Shown here: positions 3,583 to 42,739 of the stretch, in pieces | Layout of the letters: each line of letters begins with the position of its first letter | How positions within the stretch are numbered: position 1 is the stretch's first letter | Source: Terriglobus albidus | GTDB taxonomy: Bacteria > Acidobacteriota > Terriglobia > Terriglobales > Acidobacteriaceae | Reading direction: 5' to 3' | NCBI RefSeq assembly: GCF_025685425.1 | Contig: NZ_JAGTAS010000022.1 | Span: 1-64,000, forward strand | Length of the DNA stretch: 64,000 bases | Notes under the pieces: generated by a model | What the model saw: the letters and a program-made list of their open reading frames with translations, nothing else | What the model was told of the DNA's origin: nothing | Databases searched by the model: none | Position numbers and translations under genes: made by a program

Positions 3583-4050
3583 ATGCAGACGGATAACCTG
3601 ATCTCCCTGAAAGACGACATGATTGCCTTCATCGCGGGCCACGGTATGCACCGTATGAATGCTTATGTCCATGAAGACATTCCTACCGTTGTCTTCGAAG
3701 AAGAGCACGCCGATTCCTGGAAAGACTTTGTCGAACATGCCAAAGCCGCCGGGGTCAGCTTCCTGACCATGAGCGAAGTCACGCTGGAAAAGCGTGATAT
3801 CGAGATCCTCATTGAGCAGCTTCACGTCCGCGAATTTCCGGACTCTGATGACACACCGGATATCGACGACGCGCAGTACCTGGTGAACTATGTCGGCAAG
3901 ACCGGCTACCTGCAGCTCGGCTTCGCCTACAACGGCATCATGTTCATCTATGAGACCTCGACCGAGTGGTATGACCGCTTTCAGCAGTTAATGGAGAGTG
4001 TCTCGGACTTCGACTCGATCATCGTGGACGATCCCGACGCAGACGAATAG
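3583..4050 (+). CDS. Conserved acidic hypothetical protein, 155 aa
   Basis: I do not recognise a named family. The product is acidic and soluble (MQTDNLISLKDDMIAF at the start; VDDPDADE at the end), with no signal peptide or membrane segment. ATG 3583 is preferred to the in-frame ATG at 3541, because 3541 would reach into the divergent promoter region. It is divergently oriented to the ferredoxin gene, with about 80 bp between starts. Its TAG stop (4048-4050) is also the first bases of a palindromic repeat. Confidence 0.75.
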   Translation: MQTDNLISLKDDMIAFIAGHGMHRMNAYVHEDIPTVVFEEEHADSWKDFVEHAKAAGVSFLTMSEVTLEKRDIEILIEQLHVREFPDSDDTPDIDDAQYLVNYVGKTGYLQLGFAYNGIMFIYETSTEWYDRFQQLMESVSDFDSIIVDDPDADE

Positions 4051-4200
4051 TGCAATTTTCCTAATGGTGTAAAGCGGAGTATCGGGTCCCCAGCGAACTT
4101 GTTCGCTGGGTGAAGTCTTGGCTATTTGCGCCGTTTTCCTATGAAGAAAACGGCATTCGCAGATTTATCCAACACCACAGTATTAGGAGAATTGCTCTAG
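4048..4200. repeat. Palindromic repeat family 1, copy 1 (divergent long form)
   Basis: The ends form an inverted repeat: left TAGTGCAATTTTCCTAAT (4048-4065) against right ATTAGGAGAATTGCTCTA (4182-4199). Inside are the family's central GCCGTTTTC..GAAAACGGC hairpin and an extra CCCAGCGAAC/GTTCGCTGGG hairpin not seen in other copies. The left end supplies the stop codon of the upstream gene. The right end contains the GGAGA ribosome binding site of recJ and abuts its GTG start. Confidence 0.75.
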
Positions 4201-5981
4201 TGCCCGCCGAACCGCTCTATCGCTGGACAAGCCCGGAGGTCTCCTTCGAAGAAGCCGAGGCCTTCGCCCGTGAACTGCGCCTTCCGCAGGTCATAGCCGA
4301 ACTTTTGCTCAGCCGCGGCTTCGACACCCCGGAAAAGGTTGACCTTTTCCTCAATCCCGAGATCGGCCACCTGCACCCCCCTTCCGCCATGCTGGGTATG
4401 GCAGCCGCAGTGGAACGCATTCGCCAGGCCATCGCGCGCCGTGAGCCCGTTCTGATCTACGGAGACTACGATGTCGACGGCACCGTGGCTACTGTGCTGC
4501 TTAAGACAGCCATTGACCGTATCGCCGGCGGCGAATCCATCGTCCGCTACCATATTCCGCACCGCATTCGCGAGGGCTATGGGATGCAAGCGGGAGTGCT
4601 GGCGAACGCAGCTGCGATGGGTGTCCGCCTGGTCATCTCAGTCGACACAGGGATTCGCGCCTTCGCTGCCGCCGAAGAAGCACAGGCTCTCGGGCTGGAT
4701 CTGATCGTCACGGATCATCATCTTCCAGACGAGATCGGCGGCCTGCCTCCTGCGCTTGCCGTCATCAACCCCAACCAGCCCAACTGCCCTTATCCGAACA
4801 AAGATCTCTGCGGCGCGGGTGTCGCTTTCAAACTAGCCCAGGCCCTCCTGGAGAGCTCCGATATTCCCGCCGAAACGGTAGGAACCAAGCTGCTGCCCAG
4901 CTTCCTGAAGTTGTTAGCGATTGCGACCGTTGCAGACGCGGTGGCCCTCACCGGCGAGAACCGCGTCATTGTCGCCATCGGCCTACGCGAGCTGTCCAAA
5001 CCTGTCCAACCGGGTCTCCGCTCCCTGATGGAGCTTGCTCAACTCAATGTCCGGCAGCCGCTGACAGCGACCTCGGTCGCCTTCCGTCTGGCGCCTCGCA
5101 TCAATGCCGCCGGAAGGATGGATATTGCCTCGGATGTCGTCGAGATGTTCCTGACGCGCTCTCCCGAGCGGGGCCGCGAAATAGCTGAGAAACTACACCG
5201 GCTGAACGAAGATCGCCGCGCGACCGAGCAGGCTGCTCTCGATGAAATCGAGGCAGTGCTCGCCGCCGATGCATCTCTTGCGGAAACGGGGGCAGTCGTC
5301 CTCGATGGACACGGCTGGCACCGCGGCGTGATCGGTATTCTGGCCTCTCGCGTGGTCGAGCGTACCCACCGTCCGGCCCTTGTGTTGGCCCACGAGGAAG
5401 GTGAGGCATACGGCTCCGGTCGTTCCATCCCTGGCTTTCACTTGCTGGATGCGTTGACCGCAGTTCATTCCATCGCCCCGATCTTCACCCGGTTTGGCGG
5501 ACATGCGCATGCCGTCGGGTTTTCTCTTCCCTCTGACAGGGTGCCTGAACTGCGAATGAGCCTCGGGCTCTATGCACGCTCCGCGATGTCTACGGAGACC
5601 CTGCTCCCAGAGCTGCACTGTGACGCTTCCCTGCCGCTGGAGCGCATTACGCCCGCCTTTGTGGAACAGCTCCATCGTTTTGAACCCTTTGGGCACTCCA
5701 ATCCAGAACCGGTCTTCTGTTCCGGCCCCCTCCGCATTCTGGAAATACGTGTTCTCAAGGACAAACACCTTCGTTTGCGGCTGGAGCAAGGCAACGCCGC
5801 CATCGCCTGTCTGGCATGGTCGCGGCGGGTCCACTGGCCCTCGCGCTTGCAGGAACTCGGCGTAACGCAGGGTGCGATGATCGACGCGGCCTTTCGCATT
5901 CGCGAAAATGCAAACCCGGACTTCGGAAATGCAATTGAACTGGAGTTGTGCGATCTACGCCCAGCTCATACGGCAGGATAA
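4200..5981 (+). CDS. recJ: Single-stranded-DNA-specific exonuclease RecJ
   Basis: This is a DHH-superfamily 5'-3' ssDNA exonuclease for recombinational and mismatch repair. The protein is 593 residues, in the usual 550-600 range. The phosphoesterase motifs are present: YGDYDVDGT (about 88-96), SVDTG (about 150) and VTDHHLP (about 170). The DHHA1 motif GGHAHAVGF follows near 440, then an OB-fold C-terminus. GTG 4200 is chosen because TAGGAGA lies about nine bases upstream and the product begins at the family's usual point; a start at 4110 would translate a repeat element. The ribosome binding site is provided by that repeat. Confidence 0.93.
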   Translation: MPAEPLYRWTSPEVSFEEAEAFARELRLPQVIAELLLSRGFDTPEKVDLFLNPEIGHLHPPSAMLGMAAAVERIRQAIARREPVLIYGDYDVDGTVATVLLKTAIDRIAGGESIVRYHIPHRIREGYGMQAGVLANAAAMGVRLVISVDTGIRAFAAAEEAQALGLDLIVTDHHLPDEIGGLPPALAVINPNQPNCPYPNKDLCGAGVAFKLAQALLESSDIPAETVGTKLLPSFLKLLAIATVADAVALTGENRVIVAIGLRELSKPVQPGLRSLMELAQLNVRQPLTATSVAFRLAPRINAAGRMDIASDVVEMFLTRSPERGREIAEKLHRLNEDRRATEQAALDEIEAVLAADASLAETGAVVLDGHGWHRGVIGILASRVVERTHRPALVLAHEEGEAYGSGRSIPGFHLLDALTAVHSIAPIFTRFGGHAHAVGFSLPSDRVPELRMSLGLYARSAMSTETLLPELHCDASLPLERITPAFVEQLHRFEPFGHSNPEPVFCSGPLRILEIRVLKDKHLRLRLEQGNAAIACLAWSRRVHWPSRLQELGVTQGAMIDAAFRIRENANPDFGNAIELELCDLRPAHTAG

Positions 5982-6038
5982 CTTTTTGTGCCGCAAACCC
6001 TTCCACCTGCGTCAGATATACTGACGCTTCGTCGCCCT

Positions 6039-7289
6039 ATGGCTCAGAAAGCTACTAGTCCTGCTCGCACTTTCGTTTTCGCTTTGCTCGGCCTGGCCGC
6101 TCTTGTTGCGGTCGGCTTTGGTTTGCGTTCCCTGTTTCGTAGCAATGTCGATGTCCACGCTGCCTCCGTTACTTATGAAAATCTGACCAGTACAACCCCA
6201 ACGAACGGCAAAGTTCAGCCCGTGGAGCCCTTTGACGCGCACGCTCCGATGGCGGGAACGGTCGATCGGATTTATGTCGGAGCCGGCGAAAAGGTAAAAG
6301 CCGGTCAGCTGCTCATTCATATGAATGATGCTGAGGCGCGGGGACGGCTGGCCACCGCACAGTCCGCATTGGCCGGAGCCGAGGCCGCCATCCACGATAT
6401 GGAGAGCGGCGGCTCGACTGATGAGCGTATCGGCATGACCTCCGACCTGGAGAAAGCTCGTCTGCAGGAGCAGCAGGCCCAACGTGACCTCGCAGCGCTA
6501 CAGCAACTCCAGCAGAAAGGAGCTGCTTCTGGAAGCGAGGTTCTCGCCGCCCAACAACGGCTTGAAAATGCGAAATCCTCCCGCATCGCGCTGGAGCAGC
6601 GCTCTTCCCCAGCCTCACGTTACAGCGCTCAGGACCGCGCCCGCGCTAAGGCGCAGGTAGCCGATGCCTCGGCTTATGTGGCTTCCGCACGCAAACTCTA
6701 CGATCAGCTGAACGTCCGGGCTCCGTTCGATGGAACGATCTATTCGCTTCCGATACAGGAGTCGGATTTTGTTCCCGCTGGAGAGACCCTTCTCTCGATG
6801 GCGAACCTTGACCGTATCCAGATTACGGCCTATTTTGACGAGCCTGACGTAGGTAAGCTGGCTGTCAATCAGGCTGTAAGCATCGTCTGGGAAGCCAAGC
6901 CGGGCAAGGTGTGGCACGGACATGTTGAGACGGTACCGACGACCATCATCAACTATGGCACCCGCAACGTGGGTGAGTGCATTATCAGTGTCGATGATGC
7001 GCATGGTGACCTACTGCCGAATACCAATGTCACGGTCACCGTCACCATCCTGCAACACCCACATGTTCTGGCGGTTCCCCGAGAGGCTCTGCACACCCAG
7101 GGATCGCAGAGCTATGTCTTCCGCATTGTGAACGGCAAGCTGGTACGAACACCGGTTCAAGTCGGCGCCGCCGTAACCCCGACACGTATCGAAATTGCCG
7201 GCGGTCTTTCCGTTAATGACAAGGTTGCCGTCAATTCCGTTGACAACAGCGAATTGACAGATGGCCTGCCGGTCGATGTCGTTCAATAA
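6039..7289 (+). CDS. Efflux periplasmic adaptor subunit (HlyD/MFP family)
   Basis: This is a membrane fusion protein of a tripartite efflux or ABC (MacA-like) exporter, 416 residues. One N-terminal membrane anchor (FVFALLGLAALVAVGFGL) is followed by a first lipoyl half (HAPMAGTVDRIYVGAGEKVKAG), a Gln/Ala-rich coiled-coil hairpin (about residues 95-200), the second lipoyl half (LNVRAPFDGTIYSLP), a beta-barrel and a membrane-proximal domain. ATG 6039 is preferred; an upstream GTG (5988) six bases after recJ would add 17 residues before the anchor. No inner-membrane pump or outer-membrane channel is adjacent, so the partner lies elsewhere. It is probably co-transcribed with the TPR gene 11 bp downstream. 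Confidence 0.85.
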   Translation: MAQKATSPARTFVFALLGLAALVAVGFGLRSLFRSNVDVHAASVTYENLTSTTPTNGKVQPVEPFDAHAPMAGTVDRIYVGAGEKVKAGQLLIHMNDAEARGRLATAQSALAGAEAAIHDMESGGSTDERIGMTSDLEKARLQEQQAQRDLAALQQLQQKGAASGSEVLAAQQRLENAKSSRIALEQRSSPASRYSAQDRARAKAQVADASAYVASARKLYDQLNVRAPFDGTIYSLPIQESDFVPAGETLLSMANLDRIQITAYFDEPDVGKLAVNQAVSIVWEAKPGKVWHGHVETVPTTIINYGTRNVGECIISVDDAHGDLLPNTNVTVTVTILQHPHVLAVPREALHTQGSQSYVFRIVNGKLVRTPVQVGAAVTPTRIEIAGGLSVNDKVAVNSVDNSELTDGLPVDVVQ

Positions 7290-7300
7290 GGCAGTTGATT

Positions 7301-8257: not shown

Positions 8258-9252
8258 CGAAACACCTGACGCAGCTCACAATCGACCCGAGTCGCCGCAG
8301 AGCTAGAATAAAAGTCGTGGCTTCTACCGCACTCCATCCCGCGTCAGCCCGGCTTACTACCACTCATGTAAAGCGTCTTGCGTGGTTCACGTTGGCGTGG
8401 AATATTCTTGTCGTGCTTTGGGGTGCGATCGTACGTGCCACCGGCTCCGGAGCGGGCTGTGGGAATCACTGGCCCCTTTGCAATGGAGAGGTCATCCCGC
8501 ATACGCCCCGTGTCGATACGATCATCGAGTTTACCCATCGCATGATGTCTGGAGGCGCGGGCGTGCTCACGCTCGCACTGCTGCTCGCCATCATCGCAAC
8601 ATTGCAGCGACCATATTCCGCCCTTAAGGCCATACTGGCGGCGACCGTCTTGCTGATCAATGAAGCTATTCTGGGTGCTCTGCTGGTGAAACTGGGTTAC
8701 GTCACCGGCAACCGTTCTATCGGTCGAGTCATCGTCCTTTCGATCCATTTGTCGAATACCCTTCTGCTACTGGGCGCATACACCTTGACGGTTTACTTCC
8801 TTGAGCGTCCCTGGCGTTTCACCATCTCTCGCCGCAATCTCTGGCTTAGCGCCATCGGCCTGGTCAGCACACTCGTTGTCGGCGTAAGCGGATCACTGGC
8901 AGCCCTCGGCGATACACTCTTTCCAGCGACGTCGCTGCGTGCAGCCTTTGTCCAGGACTTCGCCAGCAACTCTCCCATGTTGCTGCGGCTGCGCAGCGTG
9001 CACCCGCTCAGCGCCTTCCTGGCAACCGTATTTGTCATCTGGCTACTGAAACGCTCCTGGGGATCGCCGCTGGCAAACTTCGTGCTCGGCCTGCTCGCCT
9101 TCCAGATTGCACTCGGCTTTGCCGACCTGCTGCTGTTAGCCCCAACCTGGATGCAAGTGCTGCACCTGCTCGGGGCCGATCTTTACTGGGTGGCCCTCCT
9201 CTGGCTTTCCGCGCAACAAACATTCCCACTCACAAAGGAACTTCATGCGTAA
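8254..9252 (+). CDS. ctaA: Heme A synthase (COX15/CtaA family)
   Basis: This is an integral membrane enzyme that oxidises the C8 methyl of heme O to give heme A for aa3-type oxidases. The protein has about eight hydrophobic helices and the family signature VRATGSGAGCGNHWPLCNGE near residue 65, followed by EFTHRMMSG with a conserved histidine. A second histidine pair lies in LSIHLSN and SVHPLSAF. The GTG at 8254 overlaps the TPR stop. An in-frame GTG at 8317 would give a shorter 311-residue form that fits the family start better; I cannot decide between them. It overlaps the next gene by 8 bp. Confidence 0.85.
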   Translation: MTKHLTQLTIDPSRRRARIKVVASTALHPASARLTTTHVKRLAWFTLAWNILVVLWGAIVRATGSGAGCGNHWPLCNGEVIPHTPRVDTIIEFTHRMMSGGAGVLTLALLLAIIATLQRPYSALKAILAATVLLINEAILGALLVKLGYVTGNRSIGRVIVLSIHLSNTLLLLGAYTLTVYFLERPWRFTISRRNLWLSAIGLVSTLVVGVSGSLAALGDTLFPATSLRAAFVQDFASNSPMLLRLRSVHPLSAFLATVFVIWLLKRSWGSPLANFVLGLLAFQIALGFADLLLLAPTWMQVLHLLGADLYWVALLWLSAQQTFPLTKELHA

Positions 9253-10027
9253 GCTGCTGCTCTTCCTGCTGCTGTGTGTCACAGCCGCTGTGTCTGCACA
9301 ATCTGTCCCCATGGACGGCCTGGCTCATGTCGCCATACGCGTCAAAGATGTCCCAGCCTCCCGCGCCTTCTATGAGAAGATCGGTTTTCTTGAGGCCTTT
9401 ACGATCGATAACAAGGGAGTCCTGGATCGTTCCTTCATCAAGATCAACGACGACCAGTTCATCGAGCTCTATCCGCAGACGGAGAAACAGCCCCAGATCG
9501 GGTTCCTGCACCTCTGCTTCTATGGCAGCGATCTCGAATCGCTGCATAAGCAGTATGAGCGTGAGGACCTGAAGCCGCATGACCTCAAGAAAGCGGGCGC
9601 CGGCAATCTGTTGTTCACCATGGAAGGCCCGGAGAAGCAGAATATCGAGTACACCCAGTACATGCCTGGCTCTCTCCACTCAAACGACCATGGCAAACAC
9701 CTGGGGAATCCCGTCGGCCCGAAGCTGATCAGCGTCTCTCTTGCGATGAAGGATGTTCCGGCCGCTCGCGCTTACTACTCCGAGAAGCTGCACTTCCCGA
9801 TTACAAAGTCAGGCAGCTTCGCCATCCCCGGCACCTCGGGAGAGACCGTCGTGATTGAGGACGATCAGATCGGAGCCCGCATGCGGGTTGCCTTCCAGGT
9901 GAAGAGTCTCAAGGAAGCGGCGGCAGAGCTGACGAAGCGTGGTGTTCCCTTCACGCGTGCGAAAAACGCGCTCTCCACGACAGACCCGGACGGGAATATC
10001 GTGGAGTTCCGCGAACACGGCAGCTAG
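9245..10027 (+). CDS. Secreted two-domain VOC (glyoxalase-fold) protein
   Basis: The protein is 260 residues with a signal peptide (MRKLLLFLLLCVTAAVSAQ) followed by two vicinal-oxygen-chelate domains, each opening with the fold's pattern: GLAHVAIRVKDVPASRAFYEK and ISVSLAMKDVPAARAYYSEKL. Metal-ligand candidates are H in LAHVAIR, E in QFIELYP and E in GNIVEFREHG. The substrate is unknown. The export signal is unusual for a VOC enzyme. It overlaps ctaA by 8 bp and is therefore likely in its operon. Its TAG stop is also the first base triplet of palindromic repeat copy 2. Confidence 0.8.
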   Translation: MRKLLLFLLLCVTAAVSAQSVPMDGLAHVAIRVKDVPASRAFYEKIGFLEAFTIDNKGVLDRSFIKINDDQFIELYPQTEKQPQIGFLHLCFYGSDLESLHKQYEREDLKPHDLKKAGAGNLLFTMEGPEKQNIEYTQYMPGSLHSNDHGKHLGNPVGPKLISVSLAMKDVPAARAYYSEKLHFPITKSGSFAIPGTSGETVVIEDDQIGARMRVAFQVKSLKEAAAELTKRGVPFTRAKNALSTTDPDGNIVEFREHGS

Positions 10028-10144
10028 AGCATTTTCACTGTAGGTGTAATACAGGGCATCTGCATCTATGGGCGTTTTCCGCAATGAAAACGCCGCTGCA
10101 CGCCTTTTCCGGGATACCCAGCAACAGTGAAAATGCTACTAGAG
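10025..10144. repeat. Palindromic repeat family 1, copy 2 (reverse orientation)
   Basis: A perfect 14 bp inverted repeat, AGCATTTTCACTGT (10028-10041) and ACAGTGAAAATGCT (10124-10137), encloses the core hairpin GGCGTTTTC (10071-10079)/GAAAACGCC (10086-10094) and the block GGGATACCCAGCAAC. That block appears in reverse complement in copies 3 and 7, so this copy is inverted. The leading TAG (10025-10027) is the stop codon of the VOC gene. Confidence 0.88.
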
Positions 10145-10153
10145 CAATCTGGA

Positions 10154-19401: not shown

Positions 19402-19443
19402 TAGAGCATTTTCCCTGTTGCTGGGTATCCAGGAAATGCTCTA
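19402..19443. repeat. Palindromic repeat family 1, copy 3 (42 bp miniature)
   Basis: TAGAGCATTTTCCCTG (left) and CAGGAAATGCTCTA (right) enclose the conserved GTTGCTGGGTATC block. The central GGCGTTTTC/GAAAACGCC hairpin is absent, so this looks like an internally deleted copy. The rightmost CTA (19441-19443) is the TAG stop of the third S53 gene on the minus strand. Confidence 0.8.
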
Positions 19444-22218
19444 CTGCACGGTTACCTGATAGCTGTAGTTGTGACGAACCGGGTTTCCACCGTCGGTTCC
19501 TGCGACAGTGATGGTCAACAACTGGGTTCCGAATGGGGTACCGTTGTTGGCAGATCCGCCACTGCTACTGTTGGTACCGTTCTGCTCGATTCCAGACGCG
19601 CAGCCTCCTGCCGTTATCGTGATCAAAACCGCAAGTATCGCGACCAGCAGGCTGATACGGCGGCGTGTAGGCACGATGAACCACATGATCGCCGCAAGCA
19701 CCGTTCCGCCGGCAGGAAGATGCCATGGAATGTCATGCCTCTCTAAAGAGGCCGTATTCGCAGTCGTTGTAATTGTGAGCGTGCTGGCGCCACTGCTGCC
19801 AAGCGATGCCGGAGAAAAGGCGCAGGTCATCAGCGCCGCAGCTGGAGGCGTGCAGCCCAACGTAATCGTCCCGGCGAACCCGCCTGAGCTTGTCACCGTT
19901 GCAGCAACCTGCGCCGACTTGCCCTGCGTAATATTCAGGGATGTCGGATTCAGGCTGACGGTAAAATCGCTGATTGTAACTGCCAAGGTGTTGGACGTAG
20001 CACTCTTGTAGTTGGTATCACCGGCATAGATGGCATAAAGACTATGCGAGCCAGGCAGAAGACCAGTGCTCGATACGCTCGCTATCGACTGCGTCGTTCC
20101 ATTCGGAGCCAGCGTGGCCGTCCCCAGAGTCACGACGGTGGAACCCACCGTATCGTAGAACGTCACTGTCCCAGTTGGAGGAGACAGCGTAGTCGAACCG
20201 CCACTGGCGGTCGCCGTAAACACGATGTTCGTTCCACTCACGGCCGTCATCGTACTGGCGGACAACACCAGAGTGGGGGTCACCTTCGACGTGACGACGG
20301 CAATTGCGGTTGAGGTGCTTCCGTTCCAGTTCGTATCCCCGGAGTACACCGCGGTGATGGAGTGCGTTCCGGCGCCGGTCAATGTCACCGTCGCCGTAGC
20401 TGAACCAGCAACAAGCGGAGCAGTACCGACAGTCTTCGTCCCGTCCAGGAACGTCACGTTGCCCGTGTAGATATATGTTCCCGTTGCATTACCCGCATTC
20501 GAGACAGTAGCCGTCAGGGTAACAGAATCGCCCGTAGTCGCTGCGTTGTTGCTCGACGTAACCGTCGTGGTGGTATTTCCCTTCGTCGCCGTATACGACA
20601 ACGTCACAGGAGAGTTTGTACACACAAAGGTATTGGCCGATGGACAGGAGATCACGATCGAATACTTTCCGGGCGGAGGAATCGTAATCGTAATGTTTCC
20701 TGTTCCTGATGCCACAGTTCCGGTATAGGTCTGCCCATTTACAACAGCCTGAACCGTTCCATTGGCGGTTCCTGTAGTGACCGCGACGGTCGCCGTAATG
20801 GTGGCGGTATTCCCATACGCGCCCGGTGACGGAGAGACCGATGCCGACAGCGTGCCCGTCGAAGGCGAGATGGTAACGGTGATCGGGCTACTGCTGGACG
20901 CCGCGAACGTAGAGTCTCCGCTGTAGATGGCGGTAATCGTATGTGGACCGATCACTAACGTAGAAATCGAGATATTGACCGTTCCGTCCGAGCCGATTGT
21001 CCCCGAACCGATCACGCCATCTTGAGGAGAGGTCAGCGTCACAGTTCCAGTCGGTACAGTAGTGGAATTCGTCGATGACTTAACCGCCGACGTGAAGGTG
21101 ATGTTCGTACCACCGTTAACGGAATAGCTGGACGCAAGGAGTGAGGTTGTTGTGACCGTCGTCCCAAGAGGCCAGCGCTTAATGATCTCAGCCGGGTTAA
21201 TAGCCCCAAGCCCTGCCTGTGGAGTCCAGGCTCCTGTAACGACACCCTCAGGCTGCGTATAGACACCAGGAATCACAGCCATTTGATAGAGCGTGGCATT
21301 GATGTTGCCAAGCCTTCCATCGCTGCGAGCGATCAACTCATTGACCGTTGCGCTGAAATCTTCCGTCGAAATGAAATCCGGAACAGCGCGAAGTCCATCG
21401 GTAGGCAGACCGTCTGCGACCTGCCACGCTGGTCGCGCTCCCGTTCCGGTCATGGCACTGTTCAGCGCCTTGGGAGCAATGACCGTCATTGATTCGTAAC
21501 CGCCCGATGCGTTCCCTAATACTGTTATGCCCTGGGCATTCGCCTGCTTCAGCAGAAGATCCCAATCCGTCTCACCAGCGGGAATGTCGCCCAGCACCAG
21601 TACGCCTGAGGCGTTTGCATCCACCGCCGCCTCCGCGGACGCCAAAGGGGAGCTATCAAGATCATCCAGTCCCGTTACCGCGCGAATGATCTGTGGAGCA
21701 TCTCCCGGCAGGGAAAGCTCGCCACGCTGGACAACATGCAAAGTTCCGGCAAGCTCAACCTGACCCAGACTGGCGTGGAAGACGCCCTCCGCAGTCGCTA
21801 CCGTCGAGGCTGCCTGCAACAACGTATGGGCGGCGTTGGTTGCTGTGACATGCAGGCCCTGGGCCTCAAGCCATGTCGTCGCCGTACCTATCTCCGCGTC
21901 GGTGGCGCCGAAACGAGCGGCAAACTCCTGCGGAGTCAGCCAATGATGGTAGTTCGAGGAACCTTTGGTCGTAAGGTCCGTCAAATATTGTGCCAACGCA
22001 CTCTGCCGGCTATCGTCTACCTTCAGTGCAATGGAGATGTGTTGCAACGGCCAGGAAGCTGGAGCCGCGTCCAGAACAACTGCCCCTGCCGGCAGCGATG
22101 TAGTGACGGATGGCAATGCCCGGCGGTTTTGCTGTGCCATGGCAGCCGACAAAAAAGTACATACCAGCGCGCAGACGACCGCATACCGGCGCAAAAAAGC
22201 CTGAATTTTCACCACCAT
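19441..22218 (-). CDS. Degenerate S53-like protein with Ig-like repeats
   Basis: The protein is 925 residues. It keeps a signal peptide (1-29), a pro-kumamolisin domain (about 50-190; NYHHWLTPQEFAARFG at 89-104) and a peptidase-like remnant of only about 160 residues (190-352). The EGNID/EAMLD glutamate-aspartate helix and the GGTS serine motif are absent, and the oxyanion Asp region reads GNASG (N236). Recognisable fragments remain: QANAQGITVL, the PAWQ..GLPTDGLRAVPDF block and GRLGNINATLY. Four or so Ig-like repeats and the shared C-terminal module (PTRRR, helix, GGCASG) follow. It is probably proteolytically inactive. The reading frame is open, so it is a pseudo-enzyme rather than a pseudogene. 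Confidence 0.85.
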   Translation of the reverse strand: MVVKIQAFLRRYAVVCALVCTFLSAAMAQQNRRALPSVTTSLPAGAVVLDAAPASWPLQHISIALKVDDSRQSALAQYLTDLTTKGSSNYHHWLTPQEFAARFGATDAEIGTATTWLEAQGLHVTATNAAHTLLQAASTVATAEGVFHASLGQVELAGTLHVVQRGELSLPGDAPQIIRAVTGLDDLDSSPLASAEAAVDANASGVLVLGDIPAGETDWDLLLKQANAQGITVLGNASGGYESMTVIAPKALNSAMTGTGARPAWQVADGLPTDGLRAVPDFISTEDFSATVNELIARSDGRLGNINATLYQMAVIPGVYTQPEGVVTGAWTPQAGLGAINPAEIIKRWPLGTTVTTTSLLASSYSVNGGTNITFTSAVKSSTNSTTVPTGTVTLTSPQDGVIGSGTIGSDGTVNISISTLVIGPHTITAIYSGDSTFAASSSSPITVTISPSTGTLSASVSPSPGAYGNTATITATVAVTTGTANGTVQAVVNGQTYTGTVASGTGNITITIPPPGKYSIVISCPSANTFVCTNSPVTLSYTATKGNTTTTVTSSNNAATTGDSVTLTATVSNAGNATGTYIYTGNVTFLDGTKTVGTAPLVAGSATATVTLTGAGTHSITAVYSGDTNWNGSTSTAIAVVTSKVTPTLVLSASTMTAVSGTNIVFTATASGGSTTLSPPTGTVTFYDTVGSTVVTLGTATLAPNGTTQSIASVSSTGLLPGSHSLYAIYAGDTNYKSATSNTLAVTISDFTVSLNPTSLNITQGKSAQVAATVTSSGGFAGTITLGCTPPAAALMTCAFSPASLGSSGASTLTITTTANTASLERHDIPWHLPAGGTVLAAIMWFIVPTRRRISLLVAILAVLITITAGGCASGIEQNGTNSSSGGSANNGTPFGTQLLTITVAGTDGGNPVRHNYSYQVTVQ

Positions 22219-22328
22219 AGGGATTGCATTGATTCTCGCCGCTGCCGACGGGAAAGGCAATAACACTTCCAGGCCAACGAAAGTTACCTGCCGATAACTA
22301 AAGTTGCAGGGCGTGGTACGCTGTCGGC

Positions 22329-23168: not shown

Positions 23169-23208
23169 CTTTCTGATCCGCTGTCCGTCCCACGCCCATA
23201 TCCATTCG

Positions 23209-23320
23209 AGCGTTTTCCCCATCAGGGAATATCCCGGTTGAGTGTACAAAGGCGTTTTCATTGCGGAAAGCGCCTACAGGATGCGGAGCCCTACACTACA
23301 CCCATGGGGAAATGCTCTAG
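23209..23320. repeat. Palindromic repeat family 1, copy 4 (tandem with copy 5)
   Basis: The left arm GAGCGTTTTCCCCAT (23209-23223) pairs with ATGGGGAAATGCTC (23305-23318). The core hairpin is GGCGTTTTC..GGAAAGCGCC, followed by GGATGCGGAGCCCTACACTACAC. The interval 23169-23466 contains only this copy and the next one. Confidence 0.88.
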
Positions 23321-23433
23321 AGCGTTTTCCTCGTTGTTGGGTATCCCGAAGGAGCGTACAACAGCGTTTTCATTACGGAAAACGCCTATAGGATGCGGAA
23401 ACCCTACACTACATCCACGAGGAAAATGCTCTA
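23319..23433. repeat. Palindromic repeat family 1, copy 5 (tandem with copy 4)
   Basis: The left arm AGAGCGTTTTCCTCGT pairs with ACGAGGAAAATGCTCT on the right. Inside are GTTGGGTATCCCG, the core hairpin GCGTTTTC/GAAAACGC and GGATGCGGAAACCCTACACTACA. It shares the CTCTAGAGC junction with copy 4 and ends about 30 bp before the M16 peptidase start. Confidence 0.88.
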
Positions 23434-27929: not shown

Positions 27930-27930
27930 A

Positions 27931-28171
27931 GCGTGTCGACAAATTCGGTTGCGCCACTGCGCTCGTTGCCCCATTCTTCGCGGATATGCGAAGGGTGGGG
28001 TATCGTGCTTCGCGCGACGGTATTTGTCTTTTAAAGAAACCCACCCACACAATGGCAGACCAAGCTCAATTCTGTTCGAGCCCTATTCCCATCTGAAGAC
28101 GGTCTCGCTTCGCTCGATACCCCACCCTTTCGCCGGGGGCGAAAGAATGGGGCAGCGAGTGCAGTGGCTCG
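27931..28171. repeat. Intergenic inverted-repeat element
   Basis: It begins with GCGTGTCGACAAATTC right after the glmU stop, similar to the termini of family 2. A long imperfect inverted repeat surrounds the centre: GCCACTGCGCTCGTTGCCCCATTC.. on the left and its near reverse complement (GAATGGGGCAGCGAGTGCAGTGGC) at 28146-28169. The interval 27930-28185 holds nothing else. It is probably a decayed non-autonomous repeat. Confidence 0.65.
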
Positions 28172-28185
28172 ACCAAATGGGCGCC

Positions 28186-32589: not shown

Positions 32590-32917
32590 GGTGTATCGAC
32601 AAATTCAGTCATCTGACACAGGATGACTAAAATGGTGGGAGCAGCGGGCTTCAGCCCGCTGATAAAGGCGTAAAAATAGACGGGCTTCAGCCCTGGGCCT
32701 CCTCTGTACGCGAGGAAAAAGTCCAGGGCTAATAAAGCCCCTTTCATCTTGAGCCGATACACCGCGGGCTGAAAGCCCACGCCTTTACCCCAGCAGCAAC
32801 GCTGGCCGGGGACCCCGATGCTCCCACCGATTCGAGCTTCGCTCGAACATCCCACCCATCGCGCTGCGATAGATGGGACACCCAGAGTTTGGGCTATCTG
32901 GAATTTGTCGATACACC
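32590..32917. repeat. TIR-flanked intergenic element (family 2, intact copy)
   Basis: A perfect 17 bp terminal inverted repeat, GGTGTATCGACAAATTC (32590-32606) and GAATTTGTCGATACACC (32901-32917), encloses about 290 bp with no reading frame of note. Internal hairpins match the copy at 142-379, but two extra segments (about 32688-32748 and 32781-32819) are present here. It starts directly after the TAG stop of the upstream gene; both flanks carry TAG. It is MITE-like in form. Confidence 0.8.
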
Positions 32918-32935
32918 TTAGAGCAACATCCAATA

Positions 32936-32984: not shown

Positions 32985-33096
32985 TAGAGCCTTTTCCTGT
33001 TGCTCGGTATCCGGAAGGGGTGTGCTGCGGCGTTTTCACTACGGAAAACGCCCATAGATGGATGCGCCGGACTACACCCTGCAGGGAAATGCTTTA
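32985..33096. repeat. Palindromic repeat family 1, copy 6
   Basis: The left arm TAGAGCCTTTTCCTG pairs imperfectly, with G-U-type pairs, with CAGGGAAATGCTTTA on the right. Inside are GGTATCCGGAAGG, the core hairpin GGCGTTTTC/GAAAACGCC and GGACTACACC. The last TTA (33094-33096) is the TAA stop of the minus-strand gene. Together with the element at 32590 and the terminator it fills the 500 bp gap. Confidence 0.88.
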
Positions 33097-34029
33097 TCGT
33101 ACGACCTGCTGAAACAGGGACGAAGACAATAGACTTGCGAACTGGCTGTCCGAAGACGCGTAAGCGACCGTGATGGTTCCGCTGTTGGAGCTGATCGTTG
33201 TGTGATCGAGCGCCTGCTTCTCGTCGGTTGAGCCCGAGGTCTGCTTGTACATGGAGACCGCCTTCATCAGGGAAGCAATCGTCGCGGCCGTTACCGTGTC
33301 GGAGGTCACCACCGACATATCGAACTTCACACCGTTGGAGAAGTCCATGGTGTAACGCGAGCTCTTCATGCGGTTGCGTACCGTGTCGTAGTCAGCCAAT
33401 TGCGAGGCATCGCCCATGACGCTCTTCATCATCGTCTGGGTCCCCTTCTGGTCCAGAAGACTCCAAACCGCCTTGTCATCGACGTTGGGCATCTCGGAGG
33501 CAAGATCGCCATTCAGGAAGTTAGGAATATTGCCATCGCGCGCTTCCAGCGATGTGCGCACAGCATTCTTATCGCCGAAGACCATTGTCGTCTGGTTTAG
33601 CCAGACGACGCTCATGCCCTGAGCGCCCATGGGATAGATCGCGTTATTGCGCAGCATGGTTGGCTTGATCTTGTTTTTAGCGAAATAGGCCAGAATATCC
33701 CGGGTGCGGAACTGGCCCTGAGCGATGCCGATAATGTTGGTCGTACTTCCTTCGCCGGTCCTGTAGGCCACAAAAGCGAGATTGTCGGCATCCTGATCGA
33801 CCTTCAGGCCGGAGCTCTTCAGCGCCGATTCCAGCCGCTTTAACTCCGGAGGGAGAACCCTGTCCTTGAGCGCCATGGCGGCCGAGGAGTTCTGCATCGC
33901 GCGGTAGTCCACGGTAATAATCTGCTGCACGTCACGCGGGATTGCGGACTTGGCATCCGACGACAACTGCGCGGCCGGAGCAGTTGCGGCTGCAGCAGCC
34001 AGCAGCATTGCCATGAGGGTCTGTTTCAT
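33094..34029 (-). CDS. Secreted hypothetical protein, 311 aa
   Basis: A signal peptide (MKQTLMAMLLAAAAATAPAAQ) precedes a soluble mixed alpha/beta chain with no motif I recognise. Segments such as PRDVQQIITVDYRAMQNSSAAMAL and GMSVVWLNQTTMVFGDKNAVRTSLEARDG recall the repeated domain of secreted acidobacterial proteins of unknown function. No membrane helix, lipobox or catalytic signature is visible. It is monocistronic. Its stop codon lies inside repeat copy 6 and the terminator at 32936 follows. Confidence 0.78.
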   Translation of the reverse strand: MKQTLMAMLLAAAAATAPAAQLSSDAKSAIPRDVQQIITVDYRAMQNSSAAMALKDRVLPPELKRLESALKSSGLKVDQDADNLAFVAYRTGEGSTTNIIGIAQGQFRTRDILAYFAKNKIKPTMLRNNAIYPMGAQGMSVVWLNQTTMVFGDKNAVRTSLEARDGNIPNFLNGDLASEMPNVDDKAVWSLLDQKGTQTMMKSVMGDASQLADYDTVRNRMKSSRYTMDFSNGVKFDMSVVTSDTVTAATIASLMKAVSMYKQTSGSTDEKQALDHTTISSNSGTITVAYASSDSQFASLLSSSLFQQVVR

Positions 34030-36568: not shown

Positions 36569-36660
36569 TGCGGTTCCCTACCAGTTCCGTGTGAAATCTT
36601 TGCCTTCAGGCACCCATCGATTCTACCACTTGGAGCGCCATTCCTCCGCAATCCGCCAGC

Positions 36661-37155
36661 CTATACCTCCGGTTCACTGAGAAGGCTTTCCAGATTCAAT
36701 GGGCGTGTATACATCTGTAACTCGCCGGACTCAGTCCTCGGCCACAGCTCCCGTGGACGATCCCAGTAAAGCTCCACTCCATTCTGATCCGGATCGCGCA
36801 GATAAAGCGCCTCGGAGACACCGTGATCGGCAACACCCTCCAGTGAAATCTTCGCTGCGATCAGCCTTCGTAAAGCATCTGCAAGATGCGCGCGCGTCGG
36901 ATACAGGATCGCGGTGTGATACAGCCCCGTCGTTCCAGCAGCGGGCGGTTTTCCTCCACGGCTCTCCCACGTATTCAGGCCGATGTGATGGTGGTACCCA
37001 CCGGCCGAGAGAAAGGCCGCCTGGTCCCCCAGCCGGGCAGTAATGTCAAAACCGAGCACTCCGTGATAAAAGGCGAGTGCCCGGTCCAGATCGGATACCT
37101 TCAGATGCACGTGCCCGATTCGGGCTCCTGCAGTGATCGCTGAAGTCTGTGGCAT
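36661..37155 (-). CDS. VOC family protein (catechol 2,3-dioxygenase-like fold)
   Basis: The protein is 164 residues with one visible vicinal-oxygen-chelate unit and part of a second. It opens IGHVHLKVSDLDRALAFYHGVLGFD and contains YHHHIGLNTWESRGG and LRDPDQNGVELYWDRP. The metal ligands H (HVHLK), H (HHIGLN) and E (VELYWD) are present, so a metal-dependent enzyme is plausible. The substrate is unknown. It lies 23 bp downstream of glgA on the same strand. Confidence 0.85.
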   Translation of the reverse strand: MPQTSAITAGARIGHVHLKVSDLDRALAFYHGVLGFDITARLGDQAAFLSAGGYHHHIGLNTWESRGGKPPAAGTTGLYHTAILYPTRAHLADALRRLIAAKISLEGVADHGVSEALYLRDPDQNGVELYWDRPRELWPRTESGELQMYTRPLNLESLLSEPEV

Positions 37156-37178
37156 ACGGGTCTTTGATGACGTTGAAC

Positions 37179-38627: not shown

Positions 38628-38726
38628 CGTTCGTTCTTCTCTCCCGAAGCAGCTAGTCTATATCTCACGGCCGCTTCTCCCTAACTGAGATGCACGTACA
38701 ACATCGCCGGACGCTTCGAACTCACC

Positions 38727-39524
38727 ATGCCGAAACACAAACCGAAACTTGGGCAGAACTTTCTTGTGGATGACAGCGCCCGCCATCGCATCGCAGATGC
38801 CCTTGGCGACATCCGCCAACGCACCGTACTTGAGATCGGTCCGGGCAAAGGTGCGATTACCGATATCCTTGCCGGACGCGCAGGCAGACTGATCGCAATC
38901 GAGCTCGACAATGAGCTCGCTCCAGTGCTCGCCGCCCGCTACGCAGACAGAGAGCACGTCCAGGTCATCCATCAGGATATTCTGGAGACCGATCTCACCT
39001 CGCTCATCCCGGCCGGAGAAAAGGCAGATGTGATCGGCAACCTTCCCTACTACATCACATCGGATATCCTGCTTCATCTCTTCGCCACATCAGCCCATTT
39101 GGATCGGGCTGTGGTGATGATGCAACGAGAGGTCGCCGAACGTATTGCAGCCACTCCCGGCAATCGCGACTATGGTCTGCTTTCGGCGACCTCCCAGCTC
39201 TACTGTCGCGTCGAAAATCTCTTCACCTTGCCTCCTGGTGCTTTCTCTCCTCCGCCCGAAGTCCATTCGACCGTGCTTCGCTTTACCTTTGCGCCACGGT
39301 TCGATGCACTTGGCATTAACGATGCTTCTGGCTTCGACCGGTTCTTGAAGCAGTCGTTTGCTCAGAAGCGCAAGACACTCAGCAACAACCTGCGAAGCGC
39401 GGGCTACGAGGCGCAGCAACTCCGGGAAGCGTGGCCTGCATCGATTCCGCCGCAGGCACGGGCAGAGGCTCTCTCCCTGGAACAGATGGCCGAGTTCTAT
39501 CGCGCACTGCTCGAATCTATTTAG
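38727..39524 (+). CDS. rsmA: 16S rRNA dimethyladenosine transferase RsmA
   Basis: It methylates the two adjacent adenosines of the 16S 3' hairpin using SAM. The protein is 265 residues with KLGQNFLVDD (7-16), SAM motif LEIGPGKGAITDIL (about 35-48) and catalytic IGNLPYYITSDIL (NLPY motif, about 108). Length is typical. It converges with the FecR/DUF6600 gene, and the two stop codons overlap by 8 bp. Confidence 0.95.
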   Translation: MPKHKPKLGQNFLVDDSARHRIADALGDIRQRTVLEIGPGKGAITDILAGRAGRLIAIELDNELAPVLAARYADREHVQVIHQDILETDLTSLIPAGEKADVIGNLPYYITSDILLHLFATSAHLDRAVVMMQREVAERIAATPGNRDYGLLSATSQLYCRVENLFTLPPGAFSPPPEVHSTVLRFTFAPRFDALGINDASGFDRFLKQSFAQKRKTLSNNLRSAGYEAQQLREAWPASIPPQARAEALSLEQMAEFYRALLESI

Positions 39525-41253
39525 GAGAATGCGAGGGCTGCGACGCCGGAGGCGACGAAGGAGCAGGCCGGGACGGAGCCGGTGAAGGCGCTGGAGGCGG
39601 CGCGCTCTGCCGAGGCTGCGGAGCAGGCTGAGGCTGTCGCCAGCTCGCCGGTGGCTCAGGACGCTGCACCGGTTGCGGACGCGGTTGCTGCTGCACCGGA
39701 GGCTGGTTGATGTGTCCCGGCGCGGGACGGCTCTCCACCGGGCGCTCCGGATTTCCGACATTGGTTCCCGGAGCGGGACGTGTCACCGGTTGCGCGGGTT
39801 GCTGCGGTGTCTGACCTCGTGATCCCTGATTGACTGTCGGGCTTACAGTTCTCCATCCACCCGGCATGACCGGTGGCACCGGCTGCGCCTGAATCGGAGT
39901 CGGCGATGCTTGGTTGTCCTGGAGACCCGACGGACGTGTTGGCCGTCCGCTGTCGTCTCTCGGAGCGCGCACGACCCCCATCACTGGCTGCCGGTTGCGC
40001 ATTGGGAAGTCCTTCTGCAGCGACGAACCTACCGCAGAGCCGCCACGCGGTGTATACGGACCACCCACTGGACGCAGCGGTTCAATCTGTTTTCCTGCAA
40101 ACATCACCGGCCGCGGATCGCGCCGTCCGATCGGATGCACCTGAATCGGTCCACGCCGCACCGGAACAATTGGGTGTACACCGCCCGGTCCAATCGGACC
40201 AGGAATCGGCCGACGGATCGGCTTCCACACGCGCGGCGGATTGATGACATTGACCGTCCACACTACACCCGGACCATAGCCCCAGCCCCAACGGCGGCAA
40301 CCGCCTGCCGGAAGCCAGCCCCAGCCAAATCCGTCCCAGTACGACCACGAACCGCAATAGAATGGGGTCCATCCCCAACCGTAGCCTGACACCCAAACGT
40401 ATCCGTATCCCGGATACCACACCCAGTTTCCGTACCCATAGGGATCCCAACTCATATCGACAGCCATGGGAGGCTGCCAGACACGGCCGTATCCGGGCAA
40501 GTCGTACCAGTTGCCGTTCGTATCGAGATCGCTCCAGCCATAGCCGCTATCCTGGGCGTAATCGTTTCGGGCTTCGGTACGTTGCGCCGCTTCGGCTGCA
40601 GCTGCCTGGTCGCGCTCCTCATTCCAGTTGTCCCAACTGTCCTGGCGCACGGACTTCGACAGGAAATACCGTCCACTGTCGGCGGCATCCGGCTCAAACT
40701 GCTCCCCCGCACGGACATTCGCGCTGTAGCCGCCCTCGCGCTCCACATGCAGGCTGCCCTGCATCACCACTACTTCCAGGGGAGCCTGATCCAGACTGAC
40801 ACGGAAAGAGCTGTTTTCTACAGGAGTCAGTGAAGCGGCGCCAGCCTTGAGGAAGTACCCATTCTGATCGGCAATCCGCAGCTCGAAATACGCCATCCCC
40901 TGGTCTAGCGACAGCTGCGTCAGAAATCTACCCTGGTCGGTATTCATCCGGACCAGAGTCAGAGCGCTCTGGGGTGTCAGGCGAACGATGCTGCCATCTT
41001 CAAACTCAATCTCAGCCTGCCCATCGTCGGCCGTGACAATGCGCTGACCTTCAATCAACGGCAGGTTCGCCTGGGCCTCGCCAATCTGGGTGTTGTCGCC
41101 GTACAGCACCTGCACTTTGCCTTGCACAAAGCTCAGACGGGCGGCGCGCATTCCGGGAGCGGGAGCCGATTGCTGACCGGCAAGCCCGATGACTCCACAA
41201 ACGACCACGAATAGCGCCACCAGAATTCCGCGTACTACTCCGAACCGGCTCAT
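39517..41253 (-). CDS. FecR-domain protein with Trp/Gly-rich DUF6600-like region and Pro-rich tail
   Basis: The protein is 578 residues. A signal-anchor (ILVALFVVVCGVIGLAG) precedes a FecR-type beta domain (about 35-185: ARLSFVQGKVQVLYG..IEFEDGSIVRLTPQSALTL). A tyrosine/tryptophan/glycine-rich block (about 235-330, GYGYVWVSGYGWGWTPF-type repeats) is typical of acidobacterial DUF6600 proteins. A long disordered Pro/Gln/Arg tail follows. It is probably an envelope protein facing the periplasm; the role is unknown. ATG 41253 starts the signal-anchor; upstream in-frame codons lack conservation. Confidence 0.82.
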   Translation of the reverse strand: MSRFGVVRGILVALFVVVCGVIGLAGQQSAPAPGMRAARLSFVQGKVQVLYGDNTQIGEAQANLPLIEGQRIVTADDGQAEIEFEDGSIVRLTPQSALTLVRMNTDQGRFLTQLSLDQGMAYFELRIADQNGYFLKAGAASLTPVENSSFRVSLDQAPLEVVVMQGSLHVEREGGYSANVRAGEQFEPDAADSGRYFLSKSVRQDSWDNWNEERDQAAAAEAAQRTEARNDYAQDSGYGWSDLDTNGNWYDLPGYGRVWQPPMAVDMSWDPYGYGNWVWYPGYGYVWVSGYGWGWTPFYCGSWSYWDGFGWGWLPAGGCRRWGWGYGPGVVWTVNVINPPRVWKPIRRPIPGPIGPGGVHPIVPVRRGPIQVHPIGRRDPRPVMFAGKQIEPLRPVGGPYTPRGGSAVGSSLQKDFPMRNRQPVMGVVRAPRDDSGRPTRPSGLQDNQASPTPIQAQPVPPVMPGGWRTVSPTVNQGSRGQTPQQPAQPVTRPAPGTNVGNPERPVESRPAPGHINQPPVQQQPRPQPVQRPEPPASWRQPQPAPQPRQSAPPPAPSPAPSRPAPSSPPASQPSHSPK

Positions 41254-41368
41254 AGGGGACCCCAATTCTCTCACTTGTATTAACGCATGTGTAGAAGAAA
41301 GGTTCTTCCCTAGTTCCAGCCCTGCGGCCCCCAAAAGGCATCTAGCGAAATAGCGTTCGCGGAGGGAG

Positions 41369-42007
41369 CTACTTGCCGTTATTCAGCAGCGCCTCAGCCT
41401 TCGCGCGCACCCGTTCCATCAACGACACATCCTCGACAATCTTCCGCAATGTCGGCTCAATATTCTGGATCTCGAGCGCCCATCCGGTCTTTACCGAATT
41501 GCCAAGCGAGGTGATCTCGGCATCCAGGCCGAGACGATCGAAGCGGTGCAGATATGCGAGGCGCTGGCCGAGCTCCATCGTGAGGGCGATCCCCTGAAAG
41601 ATGGAAGTCACCTTCTGAATCTCTTTGTCATCGGAGTAGTTATAGCTGCAGCTCCCGCTGTCAGAAGATCCTGTCCAGGTAAGGACTTTCTTGCCCGTCT
41701 GCGCCATATTCTTGAGGTGTGTCTCGCATTGCACCTTGCGGAAACCGTCGGTCGCCTTCGCCTCCGCCCAGATGTGCTCAAGATTCTGCGGGCTTACAGC
41801 GATTGGCGCTTCCGTGTCGATTCCCTGCTGATTACGCGCGCGATAGACCCCTTTTCCATCTTCTCCGAGGATGATCTCGTAGTGGGTGGTTTGTACCTGC
41901 GGCCGGTCAAACGTAAAGGTGACGGTCGGTGGCGTCGGGGTTGCCAGTGCTGCCGGCGTAACCTGGAAAACGAAAGAAAGTAGGAAGAGCGTAGTAACGT
42001 GCGTCAT
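41369..42007 (-). CDS. Secreted hypothetical protein, 212 aa
   Basis: A signal peptide (MTHVTTLFLLSFVFQVTPAALA) precedes a soluble chain with a cysteine at VQCETHL and one at SGSCSYNYSDD that could form a disulfide, and a charged helical C-terminus. I recognise no family. The ATG overlaps the ruvC stop by 4 bp, so it is translationally coupled to ruvC although the products act in different compartments. Confidence 0.75.
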   Translation of the reverse strand: MTHVTTLFLLSFVFQVTPAALATPTPPTVTFTFDRPQVQTTHYEIILGEDGKGVYRARNQQGIDTEAPIAVSPQNLEHIWAEAKATDGFRKVQCETHLKNMAQTGKKVLTWTGSSDSGSCSYNYSDDKEIQKVTSIFQGIALTMELGQRLAYLHRFDRLGLDAEITSLGNSVKTGWALEIQNIEPTLRKIVEDVSLMERVRAKAEALLNNGK

Positions 42008-42519
42008 CGTACTCCTGCCAGCGAGATCGCCGACTCTGTCTGCAAAGTATGAATATGAGTGATAGCAATCGCCAGTGCATCTGCGGCGTCGGCCGTTTCG
42101 AACTGGTTCTCAATCTCCAGAAGCCGGGCCACCATGAACTGTACCTGTTCCTTCTTGGCGAGGCCATATCCAACCACTGAGCTTTTAATCTTCAGGGGCG
42201 CATATTCGGCAACCTGCAGATTACAGGCAGCAGCGGCCAGCAGCGCCACACCCCGCACCTGTCCAAGCTTCAGGGCCGACTTCGCGTTCGCGGAGAAAAA
42301 CACGTCTTCGATCGCCACAACATCCGGAGCATAGGCCGTCAACAATCCGGCCAGCTCTGTATAAACCTGATGAAGCCTGATTGGGGTGCGATCCTTTTTG
42401 TTCAGTTTGATCGAACCCGCTGCCACCGGAACCAGTCGGGGAGTACGCGCCCTCTCATCGGCCTCAACGACTCCCCAGCCGGTGAACTCGGTGCCGCAAT
42501 CGATTCCGAAGACACGCAT
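42004..42519 (-). CDS. ruvC: Holliday junction resolvase RuvC
   Basis: This is a dimeric nuclease that cuts Holliday junctions with RuvAB. The protein is 171 residues. Acidic active-site residues are placed as expected: D7 (FGIDCGTEFTGWG), E near 70 (VAIEDVFF) and the C-terminal DAADALAIAITH pair. The conserved SALKLGQVRG..L block is also present. No ruvA or ruvB is next to it. Copy 7 of the palindromic repeat lies about 100 bp upstream. Confidence 0.94.
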   Translation of the reverse strand: MRVFGIDCGTEFTGWGVVEADERARTPRLVPVAAGSIKLNKKDRTPIRLHQVYTELAGLLTAYAPDVVAIEDVFFSANAKSALKLGQVRGVALLAAAACNLQVAEYAPLKIKSSVVGYGLAKKEQVQFMVARLLEIENQFETADAADALAIAITHIHTLQTESAISLAGVR

Positions 42520-42622
42520 GGTGGCAGTCTACCTTCGGAAGGTGCGCCGGGATAGTACCAAACCGCAGTCCCAGGGTGTGTTCACAACGACTTCCGCAAA
42601 CACCTTTACCAGCGCTTCCATC

Positions 42623-42739
42623 TAAAGCATTTTCACTGTTGCTGGGTATCCCGGAAGAGGAGTGCAGCGGCGTTTCGTTACGGAAAACGCCCATAGATGC
42701 CGAAGCCCTGCACTACACACCTACAGCGAAAATGCTCTA
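42623..42739. repeat. Palindromic repeat family 1, copy 7
   Basis: The left arm TAAAGCATTTTCACTGT (42623-42639) pairs with ACAGCGAAAATGCTCTA (42723-42739), with one mismatch in the arm. Inside are GTTGCTGGGTATCC, the core hairpin GGCGTTTCG/GGAAAACGCC and GCACTACAC. The final CTA (42737-42739) is the TAG stop of thiG. Confidence 0.88.

Follow-up and report, generated by a model that had tools for sequence, protein, structure and literature searches.

Among described bacterial repeats, those designated ERIC, RUP and Correia/NEMIS are elements of approximately 100–160 bp with terminal inverted repeats, TA ends, high copy numbers and stable folds, as far as the relevant account in PMC2229807 goes. 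GTAG repetitive extragenic palindromes (REPs) are often situated at the 3′ ends of genes, and according to the pertinent sections of PMC3733652 they "often provide" a TAG stop codon through their termini; in PMC3049150, the part on pneumococcal BOX repeats gives 36 cases in which the repeat encodes a gene's stop codon. The supply of stop codons by palindromic repeats (REP, BOX) has, then, already been reported, in accounts that are descriptive where these papers treat the matter. The present analysis concerns a palindromic repeat of approximately 116 bp, termed family A, and its sister family B. Both were identified in a stretch of 64,000 nucleotides (the window; positions 1 to 64,000 of contig NZ_JAGTAS010000022.1, assembly GCF_025685425.1) from Terriglobus albidus. 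The data presented below indicate that these repeats are probably acidobacterial mobile DNA elements, small and devoid of genes, that insert at TA dinucleotides and are found, unusually often, exactly at stop codons.

Family A is similar to ERIC, RUP and Correia/NEMIS, as PMC2229807 in part describes them, in size, inverted ends, TA, copy number and folds, but differs in sequence and host phylum, and no cognate IS630 was found here. Its asymmetric target motif and measured excess at stop codons are not reported for TA-type miniature inverted-repeat transposable elements (MITEs) in the corresponding part of PMC2229807. Family A works like a TA-type MITE; membership in the IS630 family is not claimed. 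It also resembles the GTAG REPs, as the relevant parts of PMC3733652 present them, in being palindromic, dispersed, often located at gene 3′ ends and a source of TAG. Those REPs, however, are 20–40 bp long and carry a GTAG tag, whereas family A is 116–117 bp long, with TA at its ends and TAGAGC as its end sequence. Unlike REPs linked to REP-associated tyrosine transposases (RAYTs) or TIRYTs, family A was not found to bracket a tyrosine transposase here. BOX is alike in supplying stop codons and in having part of the element repeated in tandem, but it has a three-module structure that family A lacks, and the BOX account in PMC3049150 contains no target motif or per-TA test. GGGCT–AGCCC repeats of the same genome and window are palindromic too, but unrelated in sequence, and bracket a RAYT gene at locus L035. 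The literature used for comparison consisted of portions of PMC3733652, PMC3049150, PMC2229807, PMC5896051 and PMC2817692; no earlier report of family A, or of a per-site test of stop codons, was found in the open-access literature searched.

Structure and distribution of the repeats

The family A unit, with the TA at both ends included, has the form TA-GAGCATTTTCCCTGT...ACAGGGAAAATGCTC-TA. The consensus of a 30-row alignment has matched terminal inverted repeats of approximately 17 bp. A unit of this size could encode at most 38 residues, and its calculated fold energies on the two strands are -51.0 and -54.6 kcal/mol. Family B has the end TAGAGCA and the layout in common with family A, but its inner arms differ and its core is GCCGTTTTC/GAAAACGGC; 19 matches to it, some partial, were found in the stretches examined.

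The initial annotation of the window had regarded confinement of the copies to that stretch as grounds for abandoning its interpretation. The copies are not so confined: a covariance model detected at least 150 family A matches in the source genome (G000; 6.10 Mb), and a DNA query at least 54, the best 40 of 377 candidates having been scored. In a survey of 61 genomes, for which filters stricter than those of the single-genome covariance-model search were used, at least 60 matches each were found in G000, G002, G012 and G015, all of one genus. One to three weaker matches each were present in G010 and G017 (same genus), G026 and G056, and none in the remaining 53 genomes. The weakly matching loci L045–L048 keep the ends and layout but have other paired arms or another core. 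A pattern scan returned at least 71 loci, all titled acidobacterial metagenome-assembled genomes (MAGs) and nearly all from two of them, which would be G012 (identical 6684-bp contig) and probably G015. With nhmmer, and with partial copies included, the 1.8 Mb of G002 examined yielded 116 family A matches, and contig C39 (698 kb) yielded 63.

Empty sites and the target motif

G002 is colinear with the source genome over the compared regions, at approximately 81–95% identity, and at many orthologous sites one genome has an element and the other a single TA. Among 58 decided sites of the source genome, the G002 allele was empty in 39, contained an element-sized insert in 15 and was intermediate in 1 and larger in 3; conversely, the source genome was empty at 28 of 47 decided G002 sites, with 15 element-sized, 2 intermediate and 2 larger alleles. 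A TA was present at the site in 50 of 59 aligned empty alleles. L122 (3012–3242) contains a nested pair, with family A inserted at a TA of family B. Elsewhere, the same TA and stop codon are occupied by family B in the source genome (window position 4048) and by family A in G002 (C1, 3925347), pointing to hot sites or replacement. Single-TA empty sites in a colinear relative, at which the orthologue has a TA-bounded unit with matched ends of approximately 17 bp, mark families A and B, on sequence comparison, as mobile elements. They are probably non-autonomous, palindromic, MITE-like elements moved in trans by a putative enzyme.

Usable TA ends were present at 76 of 113 family A sites in G002 and 53 of 75 in the source genome. 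Read with the element, the target motif is asymmetric, Y-TA-G-C-G/C; the frequencies in 202 distinct target sites were T(0.40) Y(0.86) TA G(0.46) C(0.56) G/C(0.84), and 49 empty alleles showed the same preferences. Comparison of mirrored positions in 190 sites gave P values of 1.6e-11, 3.3e-18 and 3.2e-10 at three positions and 0.24 at the fourth. The asymmetry is strong, yet the motif is present on both flanks. Since mirrored target positions differ, integration distinguishes left from right, although the terminal 17 bp are alike.

Excess of insertions at stop codons

Read inward from either side, the element begins with TAG, so that a stop codon is restored in either orientation. An insertion would thereby exchange the gene's stop codon for the element's own, and the gene that is hit would survive. 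In the empty alleles, 30 of 49 TAs (25 of 44 distinct sites after deduplication by hand) end open frames of at least 100 codons, against a background of 12.6% of noncoding TAs. When the elements were removed computationally, stop-codon TAs held 52 of 132 insertions, or 35.4 per 1000 TA, compared with 3.3–6.7 per 1000 in four classes of spacer and 0.5 in sequence called as coding. The counts were 28/760 for TAG stops and 24/707 for TAA stops. The peak lies at offset 0, with 36.1 insertions per 1000, followed by none in 46 at offsets 1–3, 12.8 per 1000 at 4–10, 8.7 at 11–20 and 2.7–6.7 beyond. Per-TA counts at stops and in intergenic sequence were 31/958 vs 28/6516 in G002, 21/494 vs 21/3088 in the source genome and 27/268 vs 21/2568 in 69 MAG loci (odds ratios 7.7, 6.5 and 13.6, respectively). 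The 69 loci are those of the 71 from the pattern scan that remained after L106 and L118 were dropped as other organisms; because they were fetched for holding an element, only their stop/intergenic ratio counts. After matching for the motif, 78 stop insertions were observed vs 27.7 expected (odds ratio 5.1 overall, and 5.0, 3.7 and 8.3 by set).

A preference at insertion is one explanation of this excess; survivorship is another. Insertions might fall on all suitable TAs, those in spacers being lost through harm to promoters, ribosome sites or operon expression, while those at stop codons are spared by their own TAG. The element ends do carry TAG, the three sets have few insertions within called coding sequence (0.4, 0.6 and 1.6 per 1000 TA), and gene 3′ ends are a common location of palindromic repeats in other bacteria, as parts of PMC3733652 describe. 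TAs just past a stop should, however, be equally harmless, but offsets 1–20 contain 11.0, 3.1 and 5.5 insertions per 1000 TA in sets whose stop rates are 33.0, 42.1 and 100.0; pooled, the comparison is 10/1230 vs 80/1738. Selection does not by itself predict this drop directly downstream of the stop. Survivorship should also raise the stop share with copy age. The observed shares do not rise: from youngest to oldest they were 0.50, 0.44, 0.42 and 0.33, and the trend is not significant (P=0.31), a result that survivorship can accommodate and that led us to discard the excess among young copies as support for targeting. Median divergence was 6 for both stop and other insertions (P=0.54). Survivorship as the whole explanation is conceivable, if doubtful. 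The excess at stop codons would instead be largely an insertion preference, with selection contributing a smaller part. It appears improbable that, over and above the DNA motif, the stop codon itself is recognized by the machinery of integration, as through coupling to translation termination or to the mRNA. Nor is the bias for gene-opposite orientation at stops (58:20, or 74%) taken as a separate sign of function, the motif predicting most of it (63%; P=0.045).

Several points weigh against the interpretation of the repeats as TA-targeted mobile elements with an excess at stop codons. Nine of the 59 aligned empty alleles do not have TA at the site, and those 59 are what remained of 94 candidate empty sites after 31 without a TA within 4 bp of both ends were dropped and 4 could not be aligned. 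The motif model was trained on just 68 intergenic insertions and cannot capture selection, and with no significant age trend, the age of the copies does not discriminate targeting from survival. A greedy ORF (open reading frame) rule took the place of a gene finder, with 44 of 190 sites falling inside called coding sequence, and the three data sets (G002, G000 and the MAG loci) have common ancestry and some common sites. Finally, no transposase with matching ends was found among Y1_Tnp and DDE_3 genes, the families checked, other transposase families not having been surveyed. As a candidate mover, IS630 was rejected: the source genome has one long DDE_3 gene and one fragment, and the ends of the long gene differ. 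In G012, a carrier of the repeat but a fragmented, 94%-complete MAG, PF13358 had no match at E 1e–5.

Candidate mechanisms of movement

The inverted ends and the TA fit cut-and-paste transposition by a TA-specific DDE enzyme, for which the prospects are about even; a single-strand mechanism of the HUH, IS200/RAYT-like type, which would agree with the asymmetry and with the grouping of copies head to tail, is possible but doubtful, and a chemistry other than these two is less likely still. A longer element with the same ends was also sought. Outside profile matches, the stretches searched contained only one end pair 300–4000 bp apart (G002 segment, 886 bp), and it brackets an ordinary ORF. The region of this ORF is also present in G000, G012 and G015, and the end pair is read here as two separate remnants.

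The initial annotation had recommended a search for an associated RAYT. TIRYT genes occur in Acidobacteria, as noted in a section of PMC3733652. The source genome has 10 Y1_Tnp matches, none of which is bracketed on both sides by family A within approximately 1.5 kb: eight of the loci have no family A copy within that distance, and the RAYT-like genes of the other two (L035, 480–2140; L039, 1320–2170) are bracketed by REPs of the GGGCTGAAGCCC and GGCACGGCTTCAGCCGTGCC types, with one family A copy each, off to one side. A RAYT was accordingly rejected as the identified mover. A broader possibility is that family A is a REP/BIME-type repeat spread on single-stranded DNA by a RAYT or TIRYT, with cleavage at the left YTA and the right TCTA, the TA then being no true duplication. 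Besides the Y1_Tnp matches themselves, the asymmetric target is consistent with this, as is the arrangement of adjacent copies: 21 of 24 groups run head to tail, and the three inverted groups lie next to a family B element. Within a 1.8-Mb segment that has a single sign of GC skew, moreover, copies are oriented 71:42 (P=0.008). When split by site class and set, however, only one of nine orientation tests gave P<0.05. At E 1e–5, the carrier G012 has one Y1_Tnp match, whereas the copy-free G008 and G011 have five each. In elements of the RAYT type, neither nearly perfect inverted repeats at the termini nor a target motif on the right would be expected. Spread by a RAYT or TIRYT is, on balance, unlikely.

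Paired changes in the arms

From paired changes in the arms of the window copies, the initial annotation had argued that the hairpin itself is maintained, and had suggested that covariation be tested against phylogeny. The paired changes are indeed in excess. Two-sided change occurred in 5 of 22 pairs of the 30-row alignment vs 0.8 in shuffles, and a tree of 280 copies, built from unpaired positions after 27 later array units were dropped, gave 50 same-branch compensated changes against a null mean of 7.0 (maximum 13 in 300 simulations), a count inflated by the short and noisy tree. Complementary two-sided changes among 307 distinct copies were concentrated at 11/106 (22), 12/105 (68) and 13/104 (13); 3/114 and 7/110 had 7 each, and every other pair 0–3. 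A looser tree count placed 36 of 51 branches at pairs 11–13, 13 at pairs 3–10 and 2 at 14–17. Three outer pairs, and differences between subfamilies, thus account for most of the paired changes, and the change at 12/105 cannot be counted as many independent events, since by eye it co-occurs with other subfamily-specific sites.

Orthologous copies, compared in pairs, provide a cleaner test, as the changes they show are those that followed insertion. From 39 listed pairs, 19, some with a common member, remained after removal of duplicates, gappy rows and pairs below 88% identity. Among their 278 outer pairs, 23 had changed on one side and 2 on both sides without compensation, and none showed a compensated change; among their 168 core pairs, 7 had changed on one side and none was compensated. 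The hairpin is therefore not visibly maintained after insertion, and its upkeep in resident copies is not supported, although the excess of paired changes itself stands. The matching of the arms would belong to source elements and to subfamilies, in keeping with both ends being read by one enzyme; the need for recognition of both ends in source copies would keep their arms matched with no upkeep of the resident hairpin.

Quasi-palindrome correction is a mechanism by which DNA template switching, with one arm copied onto the other, restores arm pairing. Copy 23318, in which each arm has two adjacent changes from the consensus with pairing intact, could have arisen in this way, and the 13 compensated changes at the tip (pairs 3–10) exceed the approximately 2.8 expected. 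The tree on which the latter count depends, however, comes from a short, probably recombining region, so its noise inflates same-branch counts, and no such event is present among the 25 changed outer pairs between orthologues. Template switching as the source of the paired changes is regarded as improbable. Arm changes that preserve the palindrome have been reported for REPs, in a passage of PMC2817692. Least probable among the alternatives is an RNA element that is maintained, as a terminator, attenuator or mRNA stabilizer, by selection on its helix: the strong folds of both strands, covariation beyond shuffles, the orientation bias at stops and the lower rate of change in the core than in the loop between orthologues (7/336 vs 90/1202, P=1e–4) are in its favour, but compensated changes were absent from the orthologous pairs and from 82 core changes on the 280-copy tree, presence/absence turnover between genomes is heavy, and an Rfam search of the window at gathering score yielded one tRNA only and no match to the repeat.

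Copies in the window

The repeat is present at all seven places reported initially, but these do not constitute one family. Six copies belong to family A; that at 4048 belongs to family B, matching the family A profile at E 0.68 over 37 bp only and the family B profile, of which it was itself a seed, with 97.5 bits. The copies at 4048 and 10025 lie in the opposite orientation, and that at 19402–19443 is without the core hairpin. All four quoted arm pairs (CCCCAT/ATGGGG, CCTCGT/ACGAGG, CACTGT/ACAGTG and CCTAAT/ATTAGG) were found, and the statement that the arms mostly still pair is fair: copy 42623 has CACTGT/ACAGCG, with one pair broken. CCTAAT/ATTAGG, from the copy at 4048, does pair, but the difference lies between families A and B, not within one family.

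Five of the seven copies supply a neighbour's stop codon, and three of the five genes so terminated have Pfam domains. The family B element (4048–4199, minus strand; sequence and family B profile) is of a 152-bp form in which CCCAGCGAAC/GTTCGCTGGG make up an additional hairpin, and its TAG at 4048–4050 is the stop codon of the plus-strand ORF 3541–4050, which has no Pfam match. The family A element at 10025–10140 (minus strand) provides, at 10025–10027, the TAG stop of the plus-strand ORF 9245–10027, a glyoxalase-domain protein. The plus-strand copy at 19402–19443 is a 42-bp internal-deletion derivative at a site that is empty in G002; from it comes the stop codon (19441–19443) of the minus-strand ORF 19441–22266, with Pro-kumamolisin and Big_3_5 domains. 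Two plus-strand elements form a head-to-tail pair: the left TA of the first (23208–23319) is mutated, and the second (23318–23433) has a TA in common with it; G002 is empty here and G012 has one copy. Further plus-strand elements, both at sites empty in G002, are situated at 32985–33096, where 33094–33096 is the stop of the minus-strand ORF 33094–34029 (no Pfam match), and at 42623–42739, where 42737–42739 is the stop of the minus-strand ORF 42737–43507, encoding ThiG (Pfam match to residues 6–250 of 256). E values against the family A profile, computed over the window and 52 loci, were 5.7e–36 (10025), 1.8e–33 (42623), 7.6e–31 (23318), 2.5e–26 (32985), 2.4e–24 (23208) and 1.1e–6 (19402); all but the last of these copies were among the 30 from which the profile was built.

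The window also contains a second repeat family (GGGAGCAGCGGGCTTGAGCCCGCTG...), at 188–380 and 32631–32921, with copies 90–95% alike; repeats of the same kind bracket the RAYT gene in L035. Nested inverted repeats with arms of 36 and 34 bp, 79–86% complementary and unlike families A and B, are present at 27943–28178.

Head-to-tail arrays

In stretches of the source genome, later units of head-to-tail arrays mostly start with TA-NYC-GCATTTT and not TA-GA-GCATTTT. Over the data as a whole, 27 of the 37 later units had this start and 5 had none that could be recognized; the junction TA-NYC-GCATTTT is almost confined to the boundaries between units. One array with NYC junctions was found in a MAG locus (L144) and none in 1.8 Mb of G002. 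The array at C38:28162–28507 (L262) has three units in the source genome and one in G002 and in L123 and L143, one locus per MAG; the right-hand variants of the single copies, at positions 91 and 100, recur in all three units, whereas the later units are close to the consensus in their left parts. In this array, in C39:268761–269102 (L239) and in others, right halves are often common within the array and the left halves of first units private. The common right halves could be read as local duplication, but unequal crossing-over among units may account for much of the pattern. Insertion of solo units with NYC-GC left ends was rejected as the origin, these ends being mostly in later units, though three solo cases exist: the source genome has 27 exact matches to the junction pattern, with solo copies at three of seven places inspected. 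One "first" unit also has an NYC-GC left end; its array is truncated by the end of a contig. Family A arrays lie at the ends of contigs C42 (L265) and C55 (L264), or no more than 50 bases from them, so that the assembly breaks there.

Implications

Paired arm changes in a mobile inverted repeat can mimic RNA covariation, and caution is therefore warranted in covariation-based discovery of RNAs. For a bacterial element, the combination of empty and filled sites in close relatives, a target motif, an age comparison and a per-site rate makes targeting versus survival at stop codons directly testable. Were stop codons indeed sensed as such, the element would move almost without cost to the genes of its host.

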